Shown one piece after another: positions 1,132 to 56,823 of a stretch of 64,000 nt of DNA. Source of the DNA: an uncultured bacterium (GTDB lineage Bacteria; Cyanobacteriota; Vampirovibrionia; Gastranaerophilales; Gastranaerophilaceae). The DNA lies in NCBI GenBank assembly GCA_902792085.1, contig CADAYE010000009.1, positions 1 to 64,000 on the forward strand. The letters run 5' to 3'. Below the pieces are notes generated by a model that saw only the letters and a program-made list of their open reading frames with translations, did no database searches and was not told where the DNA came from. The translations under genes were made by a program, and so were the position numbers. Numbering within the stretch: the first letter of the stretch is position 1; each line of letters opens with the position of its first letter.

Positions 1132-2160
1132 TTAATTAAAATGATTAAAAATTCTATTTTCTACATCTTGTTTTGAGTAGTGGATTTTTCGAGTTTGTCC
1201 TGTGTGAGATCCTGAAACGAGTTCAGGATGACGACTCTCAAAAACTACATCAACCCCTAAACCTTTTTTAACAACACCGATTTGAGTACCGGCATCAAAA
1301 TCCTGCGGTACGACTGCGACAAGTCCGTAATCTTCACCGCCAAACAAAACCATATCCTGCCAAGAATCAAATTGTTCAAGGTCTTTATCGTGCGGTATCT
1401 TGTCAAAATCTATTTCCAATAAAACTCCGCTTTCGTTTGCAATAGTTGATAATGCGTCCATAAGTCCGTCTGATGTGTCCATCATGGCATAAAGAATTGT
1501 ATCTTTACAAGATGGGAGATTCTTCGGTCGCTTCGCTTTCTCAGAATGACAATATGTGCTGATTTTTTCTGAAAACTCAATCTGTGCTTGTGGTTCTAAA
1601 TGTGCTTTTACAAATTTTTGCGGCTCTGTTTTTCCTTCAAGCAACAATTTTAATCCTGCGCAACTTGAGCCATGCAAACCAGAAACAACGACTTTGTAAC
1701 CCTCTTTTGCATTTTTTCTTGATGAAATATTATGCCCTTTTGCATCTCCAATTGCGCAGACCGAAACATAAATTTTATCAGCAGACGTTATATCTCCGCC
1801 GACAATTTCAATATTTTCCCCCTCTCCTTTTGGGAGAGGGTCTGGGTGAAGGTTGCAAGCCTTTTTTGCACCTTCATAAAACTCTTTTACAAAATCCGAA
1901 TCAATATCGTTTGGCAAAGAAAGGGAAATTGTCAAATAAGTGGGTTTTGCACCGCTTGCACAAATATCTGAAATATTTACCATGACAGATTTATAGCCTA
2001 ACTGAAACGGAGAGATTAAATCCCTTTTAAAATGCACATCTTCAACAAGACTATCCTGTGAAACGACTATGCCCAAATCTTTTAGATATGCACAGTCATC
2101 CCCGATATAATCCGACTGCAAAACATTTTTTATTATATTTATAAATTCTTTTTCTTTCAT
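1132..2160 (-). CDS. thiL: Thiamine-monophosphate kinase with three in-frame repeat insertions
   Basis: ThiL phosphorylates thiamine monophosphate to the cofactor thiamine diphosphate using ATP and Mg2+. Family signatures are clear: GDDCA near the N-terminus, SLVEDVHF, NISDICASGA, GGDIT, MDTSDGLMDAL and FGGEDYGL. I place the start at the ATG at 2160; the ten codons upstream from a TTG lie in a GTTGGGC/GCCCAAC palindrome. Unusually, three stretches interrupt otherwise family-like sequence: LHPDPLPKGEGE (about 1815-1852), CHSEKAKRPKNLPS (about 1505-1550) and RHPELVSGSH (about 1205-1235). Each is encoded by a palindromic repeat of a type found elsewhere in the window, so they look like inserted DNA read in frame. 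No other thiamine synthesis gene is adjacent. Confidence 0.92.
   Translation of the reverse strand: MKEKEFINIIKNVLQSDYIGDDCAYLKDLGIVVSQDSLVEDVHFKRDLISPFQLGYKSVMVNISDICASGAKPTYLTISLSLPNDIDSDFVKEFYEGAKKACNLHPDPLPKGEGENIEIVGGDITSADKIYVSVCAIGDAKGHNISSRKNAKEGYKVVVSGLHGSSCAGLKLLLEGKTEPQKFVKAHLEPQAQIEFSEKISTYCHSEKAKRPKNLPSCKDTILYAMMDTSDGLMDALSTIANESGVLLEIDFDKIPHDKDLEQFDSWQDMVLFGGEDYGLVAVVPQDFDAGTQIGVVKKGLGVDVVFESRHPELVSGSHTGQTRKIHYSKQDVENRIFNHFN
1205..1235. repeat. Palindromic repeat of HPELVSGS type inside thiL
   Basis: CCTGAA-acgag-TTCAGG at 1211-1227, read in thiL as RHPELVSGSH. The same palindrome type stands outside genes at 2221-2239 and, with compensating changes (CCCGAA/TTCGGG), twice at 56705-56721 and 56777-56793. 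Confidence 0.7.
1505..1550. repeat. CHSE-type repeat inside thiL
   Basis: The minus strand reads GTCATTCTGAG, then GAAGCGA and GAAGAATCTC, a sequence style I know from dispersed intergenic repeats of other bacteria. In thiL it encodes about 15 residues that have no place in the ThiL family. Confidence 0.55.
1815..1852. repeat. CCCTCTCC/GGGAGAGGG repeat inside thiL
   Basis: The arms CCCTCTCC and GGAGAGGG (around 1819-1846) flank a four-base loop; the minus-strand reading is LHPDPLPKGEGE. Related sequence occurs in element B (5487-5525), at the end of spmA (58535-58577) and in element C (59726-59765). Confidence 0.65.
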
Positions 2161-2172
2161 ATTATTTCTTAT

Positions 2173-2239
2173 GTTGGGCTGAAAGCCCAACTTACATATT
2201 AAAATTTTTGAGGAAAAAGATCCTGAATCAAGTTCAGGA
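2173..2239. repeat. Two small palindromes downstream of the GGDEF gene
   Basis: GTTGGGC-tgaaa-GCCCAAC (2173-2191) and TCCTGAA-tcaag-TTCAGGA (2221-2239) fill the gap between the GGDEF gene and thiL. Neither is followed by a clear T-run on the minus strand, so I call them repeats rather than terminators. Confidence 0.5.
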
Positions 2240-2244
2240 TGCCA

Positions 2245-5302: not shown

Positions 5303-5740
5303 TACATAAATAATATTATCTGTATGTTCATTCTTTCTCTTTTCTTGCGATGAAAAGAGAAAGAATGAACCAAGAAAGAGAAAATACGCTATTTCACTGC
5401 AATGCCTGACGGCATCGCTCCAAACTACGGCGCCTTTGATATTACCCTCACCCGCAGTTGTATGGTTCATAAATTCACCTACAACTGCTCCCTCTCCCAA
5501 GAGGAGAGGGGTTGGGTGAGGGGTAAACGTGCGCCGTTGTCTTTATGCACGCTAAGAGATTTTTGCCGACAGGCAAAAACACATATTACTGCGTTAGCAG
5601 TCTAATGTCGCCGTTAGGCGATATTGTACCTTAGCGTGTTTTTCTTTTCGATTCACTTTTCTTTTTGCGTCGCAATCAAAAAGAAAAGTGAACATAATAA
5701 GAATATCTTAGCGAGATATTCGGATAATATTATTTATGTA
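5303..5740. repeat. Composite hairpin element, copy B, with 18-bp terminal inverted repeats
   Basis: A 438-bp non-coding element between rsmD and the GT9 gene. Its ends (5303-5320 and 5723-5740) are perfect 18-bp inverted repeats; the right one contains the last codons and stop of rsmD. Inside are T-rich hairpin B1 (arms 5326-5344/5352-5370), ATGCC-TGAC-GGCAT (near 5402), a central CCTCTCC/GGAGAGG hairpin enclosed by TACCCTCACCC and GGGTGAGGGGTA, TTTTTGCC-GACA-GGCAAAAA, ACTGC-GTTA-GCAGT, TCGCC-GTTA-GGCGA, and hairpin B2 (5652-5667/5677-5692). There is no plausible protein. The symmetric layout suggests a MITE-like element or a structured RNA. Confidence 0.75.
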
Positions 5741-33884: not shown

Positions 33885-34020
33885 TAGTAAAAAAGATGTG
33901 ATTTGAACTGAACTCTAAAAATTAGACAAAGTAAAAAGAAGTCGATTTTAGGGCTTTAGTTCATTGGTACCCTCGCCTTATATTTTATTATTGTTGGGTA
34001 TCATCCAACCTACAATTCTA

Positions 34021-34200
34021 TATAGGTGATACCACAAAAATAAGTTAAAATCAGCACCCACCCCAACCCTCCCTCGTGAGGGATGGAGAAATTTCAAATT
34101 GAACAGAATGTGAAATTTAGAAATTTGGGTGGGTGATTTTCCATTAGGGATAACCGTTTTGCCAAAATTTTGTGATAAATAATATATAATTGCCATAATT
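34021..34200. repeat. Dispersed repeat D, copy 1
   Basis: Nearly the same sequence stands at 45400-45560. Ends TACCACAAAA (34030-34039) and TTTTGTGATA (34168-34177) are inverted; internal CAGCACCCACCC pairs with GGGTGGGTG. Copy 1 has about 13 extra bases before GGGTGGGTG. It looks like a small mobile palindromic element. Confidence 0.7.
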
Positions 34201-34346
34201 TTTTATATTTATTGTAGGGTTTCACCCAACCTACAATTCTTAGGGAAGGAAAATTAAAAGGCGGAGTTGATACCTCCGCCCTACATTTTATTTTATAGGA
34301 CAGTTTTGGTTTTGAAATTAAACAATTTGTGTAACAAAAAACTTAA

Positions 34347-45377: not shown

Positions 45378-45399
45378 AATATTTATTTTTGGTAACTAT

Positions 45400-45560
45400 A
45401 TAGGAGTTACCACAAAAATAAGTTAAAATCAGCACCCACCCCAACCCTCCCTCGTGAGGGAGGGAGAAATTTCAAATTGAACAGAATGTTTGGGTGGGTG
45501 ATTCCCCGTTAGGGATATTCGTTTTGCTAAAATTTTGTGGTAAATAATATATAATTGCCT
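45400..45560. repeat. Dispersed repeat D, copy 2
   Basis: Near-identical to 34021-34200. Inverted ends TACCACAAAA (45409-45418) and TTTTGTGGTA (45533-45542); an extra hairpin GGTAACT/AGTTACC (45392-45412). In copy 1 the equivalent outer arms are GGTATCA/TGATACC, changed on both sides. It lies between two convergent stop codons. Confidence 0.7.
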
Positions 45561-47041
45561 TATTTTTTATTTTTCTTTTCTTTTCGGTCACATTCTAATG
45601 CTTTATTCAGGTGTTCAATCAGTTCTGATGCGTGATAGTGCATTGCATGCTCAGATTTGTGGTGAATATCTACCAAATGATAATGCATTGCCATTTCAAC
45701 CTGAATTAAAGCAATATTATAATTGTAAATACTGTCTATATAACTGTCTAACGCCCTTATATAATCTTTTCTTGCATACTGCAACGCAACATAATTCAAC
45801 ACATCGGAACGATATTTTTTCTCAACAATTTCAAGATTTCTAAGAGCCTGTTCAAGTTCAATTTTTGCAGTCGGAACCTGTTTCTTTGCCCTATCAACAT
45901 TATTAAATGCTCTCAATAACTCATATTGCAAATCTTTTTTAAATAAATTGATTTCATTCTCCGCAATATTTAATTGTGCATCAGCACCCTTGACAGAATG
46001 TCTTAATTCCATCAAATTGACACTCGTTGATAAATTTACCCCGATACTCAAACTGTTATTGTTTGTAAAATTTGTATGGTTTAAACCATACCCGACATCA
46101 GCAGTCAAATCAGGCAGATAAGTCCTTTTTACATACTTTAAAGATTCTTCCATTGCATTTTTTGTGTTAATTAAAACCTGCAAGTCAGGACTGTTTTGGT
46201 ATGCGATATTTAAAGATTCACTCATCTTGAACGGAAAAACATAAGCCTCAAAAGGTTTAACTTCAACCCTTGATTTTGAGCCGTACGCATAATCATCATT
46301 GTAAGTAAATGTTTGAGTGTTCTGAATTTCATAATCAGGCTGGGAATCAATATACATAGCATTACTCAAGTCATATTTCGTATTATTATATGTATTTTCC
46401 GCCTCAATATATTTTATTTTTGCTTCACTCAAATTAAGTTCGGCAGTTGCAATATCAGGTTCAGTTTTTGTTCTCGCTATTTCCAAAAATTTCTCATTAA
46501 GATCCACATTGTTTTTCGCCACATTCAACAATGCTTTCGCCCTCAAAAGATTATAATATTTTGCCTTTATGTCAAATAAGGTGTAGCAAAGACTGTCCAT
46601 AAATTCATATTCAGCGGCAATTTTATTAAATTCTTCCATTTTAATAAATGCGGTAGTCTTGCCAAAATTATATATCAACTGACTCAAACCAACACTAATC
46701 TGAGGTAAATCTCTGTATCTTTTATCATAATAAATCCCATCAGAATTGCGCTGGTAATTAAATCCGACACCTGCACCTAAGGTCGGGAAGTATTGAGATT
46801 TTGCAATGCCTACATTACTCTTTGCAATGTCTAATTCGTATTTCTTGCGTTTAATTTTCGGACTGTTCTTAAAAGCCAAAGAAACACAGTCAATTATACT
46901 CAAAACCGTACCGTTTTTAATTTCTACGGCGGGTTTTAAAAATAATTCTTCCTCGTCGTGCTCATGTATTGCGCTGACGCTGTTTCCGGCTAATAAACAT
47001 GCTATTACCAGTGCCGAACATAATACCTTCTTTATGTTCAT
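45560..47041 (-). CDS. Second TolC family protein with His-rich tail
   Basis: 493 residues with a signal peptide (MNIKKVLCSALVIACLLAGNSVSA) followed by HEHDEEE. Two TolC/CzcC repeats of coiled coil and barrel strands fill the rest. The last 60 residues are rich in histidine (MHYHLVDIHHKSEH, MHYHASEL) and lysine, which suggests metal binding in the periplasm. There is no pump or adaptor gene next to it. A TGA-TATAAT box six bases before the ATG suggests a leaderless mRNA. Confidence 0.87.
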   Translation of the reverse strand: MNIKKVLCSALVIACLLAGNSVSAIHEHDEEELFLKPAVEIKNGTVLSIIDCVSLAFKNSPKIKRKKYELDIAKSNVGIAKSQYFPTLGAGVGFNYQRNSDGIYYDKRYRDLPQISVGLSQLIYNFGKTTAFIKMEEFNKIAAEYEFMDSLCYTLFDIKAKYYNLLRAKALLNVAKNNVDLNEKFLEIARTKTEPDIATAELNLSEAKIKYIEAENTYNNTKYDLSNAMYIDSQPDYEIQNTQTFTYNDDYAYGSKSRVEVKPFEAYVFPFKMSESLNIAYQNSPDLQVLINTKNAMEESLKYVKRTYLPDLTADVGYGLNHTNFTNNNSLSIGVNLSTSVNLMELRHSVKGADAQLNIAENEINLFKKDLQYELLRAFNNVDRAKKQVPTAKIELEQALRNLEIVEKKYRSDVLNYVALQYARKDYIRALDSYIDSIYNYNIALIQVEMAMHYHLVDIHHKSEHAMHYHASELIEHLNKALECDRKEKKNKK

Positions 47042-47067: not shown

Positions 47068-47275
47068 GGGTAAATGTTGCCACCATTGGTTGAGCAAAGT
47101 TGACATTGGGTTAAGTATTTTTGGGTAAATGTTGCCACCATTGGTTGAGCAAAGTTGACATTGGTTTTAGTATATTTGGGTAAATGTTGCCACCATTGGT
47201 TGAGCAAAGTTGACATTTGGTTAAGTATTTTTGGGTAAATATTGCCACCATTGATTTAGTTAACTTGACAGGCTA
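47068..47275. repeat. Tandem array, four units of 55 bp
   Basis: Units start at 47068, 47123, 47178 and 47233, each beginning GGGTAAAT and containing TTGCCACCATTG and TTGACA (47100, 47155, 47210, 47265). The first three are almost identical; the fourth has diverged and supplies the -35 box of the rightward promoter. It lies between the divergent TolC gene and a small unknown gene, suggesting a set of binding sites. Confidence 0.9.
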
Positions 47276-56682: not shown

Positions 56683-56704
56683 ATAAACTCCTTAATATTG
56701 AAAA

Positions 56705-56823
56705 CCCGAAACAAGTTCGGGATAAGGTATTTGTACGGCTCGTTACACTCGATTATACCATGCTTTTCGCAGGGATCCCGAAACAAGTTCGGGATAAGGT
56801 ATTTGTACGGCTCGTTACACTCG
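56705..56823. repeat. Two 47-bp direct repeats with palindrome
   Basis: 56705-56751 is repeated exactly at 56777-56823 (72-base period). Each begins with CCCGAA-acaag-TTCGGG, related to the HPELVSGS-type palindrome in thiL. The tract lies inside the Etf operon, between etfB and the Cys-rich gene. Confidence 0.85.

Follow-up and report, generated by a model that had tools for sequence, protein, structure and literature searches.

The window, as we call the whole 64,000-nucleotide stretch of DNA analysed here, corresponds to contig C9 of a 1.92-Mb Gastranaerophilales rumen MAG (G000), whose genus includes many rumen MAGs. It carries thiL, a single-copy gene in this genome, between a GGDEF/HD gene on one side and a comF-like gene on the other, an order that is conserved in relatives. 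In a profile search, the thiL frame scored 215.8 bits against TIGR01379, above the cut-off, and was also matched by both PF00586 and PF02769. The frame is open over 1132-2190, with a TTG start located within a repeat; relatives share the ATG at 2160 (MKEKEF) as their start, and the coding sequence was therefore set to 1132-2160. Read in frame from the TTG, this repeat, the fourth at the locus, would give LGFQPNI; it also lies 5' of thiL in three relatives (G004, G030 and G064). The AlphaFold2 model of ThiL had a mean pLDDT of 89.3 and matched Aquifex ThiL (3c9u) with a Z of 33.8 and an rmsd of 2.1 over 284 residues. The GDD, GGD, DTSDG and GGED motifs are invariant, and ThiL of insert-free congeners has about 300 residues.

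The first-pass annotation had proposed that three different palindromic repeats are read in frame within thiL. Three repeat types, here called families A, B and C, do lie within the one open frame (Table 1), and each corresponds in the AF2 model to a low-confidence loop flanked by regular secondary structure. Insert 1, which amounts to 11 extra residues relative to congeners in the ThiL alignment, occupies the loop between helix 88-102 and strand 118-126 (pLDDT about 72). Insert 2 lies between helix 194-203 and strand 225-228 (pLDDT 53-68), and insert 3 between strands 302-307 and 324-328 (pLDDT 55). These placements agree with surface loops as the probable sites, as far as the model goes. Single-strand folding predicted a hairpin at site 1 (-8.6 kcal/mol, z -2.0) and another at site 3 (-7.7 kcal/mol, z -2.5), but none for the site-2 copy (-0.4 kcal/mol, z +2.1); the term palindromic therefore suits two of the copies in thiL and not the third.

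Table 1. Features of the thiL locus and nearby repeat copies (positions in the window)
Feature	Position	Strand	Support
thiL, thiamine-monophosphate kinase, 342 aa with inserts	1132..2160	-	TIGR01379, AIRS domains, AF2 model
Insert 3, family C (CGTC-ATCCTGAA-CTCGT-TTCAGGAT-CTC), read RHPELVSGSH	1204..1233	-	76 genomic copies
Insert 2, family B (TGTCATTCTGAG...GAAGAATCTC), read CHSEKAKRPKNLPS	1510..1551	-	5-15 genomic copies
Insert 1, family A (CCCTCTCC-N5-GGAGAGGG), read LHPDPLPKGEGE	1816..1851	-	14 genomic copies
Fourth repeat, TTGGGCTTTCAGCCCAA hairpin, immediately 5' of thiL ATG	2165..2196	.	hairpin z -5.0
Family C intergenic copy, between thiL and GGDEF/HD gene	2217..2243	.	hairpin z -4.0
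Family A intergenic copy	5490..5519	.	pattern match

Each repeat type also occurs outside genes, as initially annotated. The genomic copy numbers in Table 1 (for family B, 5 with a strict and 15 with a looser pattern) come from pattern searches plus the sequence stretches around matches, which miss divergent copies; reversed-pattern controls gave 0 for every family, and the repeats are thus present far beyond chance. The site-3 type was found in 45 of the 46 genomes of the genus, at 1 to 186 copies each. Most copies are single and outside ORFs. Of 71 C and 15 B copies, only 9 and 5, respectively, are located well within ORFs, in comparison with a coding fraction of 88% in the window; such avoidance is the pattern that purging would give. 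Family C copies were also seen in pairs of opposite orientation, including those in IspE and the U32 peptidase described below.

One C copy lies about 150 bp from a truncated RAYT, and a RAYT was considered as the mobiliser. This candidate was rejected: the genome has an intact RAYT and a fragment, and the intact one is flanked by a different palindrome. None of the three families could be linked to a transposase. The intact RAYT-like protein (173 aa, PF01797; L081, G000:C22:80099-80434) has its own inverted GTAGACTTTAGTCTAC palindromes on its flanks. Other repeats were noted in the same genome. A MITE-like repeat is present twice in the window (34018-34203 and 45396-45568), and a 99-nt part of it recurs beside a truncated RAYT-type transposase (L082, G000:C36). 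A 47-nt unit that holds a variant of the site-3 palindrome (CCCGAAACAAGTTCGGG) occurs twice, 72 nt apart, at 56701-56823, and a tandem array of nearly identical 55-nt units lies at 47068-47270.

ThiL was found in 46 congeneric species, and the retrieved proteins were aligned. Extra residues at the insert sites are confined to a clade of nine species (the window genome G000 with G002, G004, G064, G062, G063, G016, G012 and G030); in ThiL of the approximately 37 other congeners the sites are short and the inserts absent. The three segments are also missing from solved ThiL structures, and the idea that they are a conserved feature of ThiL was rejected. Among other congeners, the length of these loops varies even in the absence of repeats. 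Within the clade the occupants differ, with five different contents at site 1, four at site 2 and two at site 3. At site 1, five members have the A repeat, G030 and G064 have other repeat-like sequences (TPNGEVRR, SLPLDKG), and the remaining two, G062 and G063, have short extensions. Site 2 carries the B repeat forward in G000 and G030, while reversed and composite versions of it occur in the pairs G002/G064 and G016/G012; it is empty in G004, G062 and G063. At site 3, family C is found in G000; G030 and G012 have a B-like composite there, and the other six members have nothing.

Parsimony on a tree of flanking genes, with site occupants assigned by eye, required at least five, five and three state changes at sites 1, 2 and 3, respectively, at least 13 in total. 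The glycosyltransferase codon alignment of G004 holds a stop, giving G004 a long branch in this tree; its placement beside G002 and G000 agrees with sequence identities. The ThiL gene tree itself was poorly supported, with conflict between parts of the gene. Two pairs of species have tracts of identity. G002 and G064 share 173 identical nucleotides across insert 2 and diverge by about 14% elsewhere, with an expectation of about 2e-9 for such a run given how far the sequences differ beyond the tract; in G012 and G016, a 635-nt stretch of identity gives way to abrupt divergence around site 3. Both tracts are, from the aligned sequences, signs of interspecies recombination. No target-site duplication was seen in the closest filled/empty pairs (G012/G016 and G000/G004), in which the flanks differ too; no pair is cleanly empty and filled, and the residues flanking the inserts change along with the insert. 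The apparent reuse might alternatively go back to a single ancient insertion in each loop that was later remodelled.

The same peptides were found in other proteins of the genome. In-frame repeats are present in an IspE-like kinase, PgeF, Mfd, a zinc alcohol dehydrogenase (ADH), an ABC ATPase with several inserts, an MFS protein and a U32 peptidase. IspE has two loops with changing occupants, one of which holds different families. The U32 loop contains a C dimer in G000, G004, G002, G062 and the distant congener G008; in G030 it holds a B-type segment, in G021 one C copy, and in most other aligned members no recognisable repeat. Three families in one enzyme, singled out at first pass as remarkable, is accurate for ThiL, but ThiL is not alone in having multiple inserts: IspE, an ABC ATPase and Mfd each have more than one as well.

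Other repeat-containing frames were observed in the course of the survey. One 482-aa ORF of the window genome (L054, G000:C22) has several repeat-derived stretches, one of them before a signal-peptide-like segment, and gave no Pfam match. In G008, C-type inserts lie in frame in leucyl-tRNA synthetase-, RibD- and NIF3-like proteins (L243, L260 and L280; named by eye). In the same genome, N-terminal in-frame repeat mosaics, from tens to about 200 aa in length, precede a prepilin-type motif (AFTLAEVLITIGVIGVVAAMTIP) at L252, L257, L258, L260, L262, L263, L266, L271, L273 and L274. If translated, these mosaics would be leaders that prepilin peptidase removes; another possibility is that they are open intergenic DNA.

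Protein-coding palindromic repeats are classically known from Rickettsia (RPE; Ogata 2000, 2002, as reviewed in PMC2229807), where a guanylate kinase with an RPE insert is translated and active (PMC2229807). By description, RPEs are likewise dispersed repeats found in frame in conserved genes (PMC2229807). The parallel with Rickettsia, drawn already from the sequence at first pass, was supported: the orthologues outside the clade (about 37 congeners, solved ThiLs) are without the segments, thiL is not decaying, the inserts fall in loops and the peptides recur in other proteins. The RPEs reviewed in PMC2229807 are, however, 105-146 bp long, compared with 30-42 nt here, and belong to another phylum; in the present case, unlike that of Rickettsia, the loops are refilled by different families across sister species. 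Enterobacterial RU/ERIC elements are also small mobile repeats fused in frame, yielding peptide in conserved genes (Delihas 2007, as reviewed in PMC2229807), but are MITE-like, 103-168 bp in size and described from enterobacteria (PMC2229807).

CGTC- and GTAG-tagged REPs are described by Di Nocera 2013 (PMC3733652) as occurring inside genes, sometimes with two insertions in one ORF; in recB of two Xanthomonas species, different REPs occupy roughly the same position, and RPE-4 and RPE-6 are equated with CGTC repeats. Family C shares with the CGTC-REPs of PMC3733652 the CGTC tag, an 8-bp stem starting with AT (8-9 bp in the description) and a 5-nt loop (4-5 nt). CGTC-REPs are further described as forming opposite pairs and as having no dedicated transposase; opposite pairs of family C were seen here. 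Its three-base tail is CTC, whereas most, but not all, CGTC-REPs have CCA. Families A and B fit the CGTC/GTAG scheme poorly. Gastranaerophilales are not among the groups named for these REPs in the parts of PMC3733652 that were consulted, and the reuse of fixed loops is followed here over nine species and in three genes. A literature search for Gastranaerophilales together with palindromic repeats returned only unrelated studies. Given the resemblance to the RPE and CGTC-REP descriptions, the present case belongs to a known phenomenon, in a new lineage; the repeated refilling of loops across sister species in three genes goes beyond what was found described.

Very probably, short dispersed REP-like repeats landed in frame in thiL within one rumen Gastranaerophilales clade, survive in tolerant loops and have been exchanged as alleles by recombination. 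Mobile or copied, such repeats would insert at many places, and stop-free in-frame copies in tolerant loops would persist; inserts in thiL would survive because the frame used contains no stop and because they sit in loops at the surface of ThiL. That different families refill these loops would then reflect a filter, by which insertion is widespread and only the tolerant-loop cases are kept, and homologous recombination between sister species would move filled and empty alleles. We infer both the direction of the first insertions and a mobilising enzyme.

The main competing explanation is that the loops are true insertion hot spots, at which a resident repeat or the site DNA attracts or templates further repeats. 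In its favour are the concentration of the inferred changes at just three ThiL sites, the lack of similar inserts elsewhere in the ThiL alignments, the opposite orientations and composites at site 2, and the different families at one IspE loop. We regard it as unlikely, however, since tolerance alone accounts for the repeat-free length variation of these loops in other congeners, repeats are mostly single and intergenic, and no mobiliser is known. Selection for the inserts, whose peptides or mRNA hairpins would tune the stability, regulation or interactions of ThiL, might be read from their persistence in several species and from the hairpins at two of the three sites. Yet the occupants in sister species differ in sequence, length and orientation and are absent from others, the site-2 copy does not fold and many unrelated genes carry inserts, which makes such a role improbable.

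Less credible still is a thiL that has become a pseudogene in decay, in which any insertion would be tolerated. Such decay would fit with the ThiL protein diverging faster than the products of the adjacent genes, but the frame is open in nine of nine clade members, the motifs are invariant, the gene is single copy and the dN/dS of the core is 0.07-0.21 in all pairs. The core is therefore under purifying selection and thiL is no pseudogene; decay, named beforehand as an outcome that would count against in-frame inserts in a working enzyme, was not found. An artefact of assembly or binning deserves equally little credence. Every genome used is a MAG, and repeats are easily misassembled, but gene order and inserts agree, with graded divergence, in independent MAGs (RUG, RGIG) from different animals and studies. 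We infer that the insert-bearing ThiL keeps its activity and that the segments are translated. Since the predicted fold is kept and the enzyme still selected, the added peptides are most likely near-neutral.

Beyond the preferred explanation, namely in-frame landing of dispersed repeats with survival in tolerant loops, we tentatively raise the possibility, to which we give somewhat less than even weight, that fixed loops of housekeeping enzymes in this genus serve as exchangeable slots, in which repeat families swap in frame, at constant positions and in either orientation, and which recombination trades between species. If true, such slots would be an ongoing route to peptide gain, observable across dozens of sister species. 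For annotators, HPELVSGS, ILKQVQND and HPNPLPKGE in proteins of this kind are to be read as repeat-encoded and not as family features. With its 46 sequenced congeners, this distant gut lineage offers filled, refilled and empty loops in ThiL, IspE and the U32 peptidase, and this variety makes peptide gain from repeat DNA, the tolerance of loops and the spread of alleles testable. The analysis points to repeat DNA as a recurrent source of new peptide in working housekeeping enzymes.
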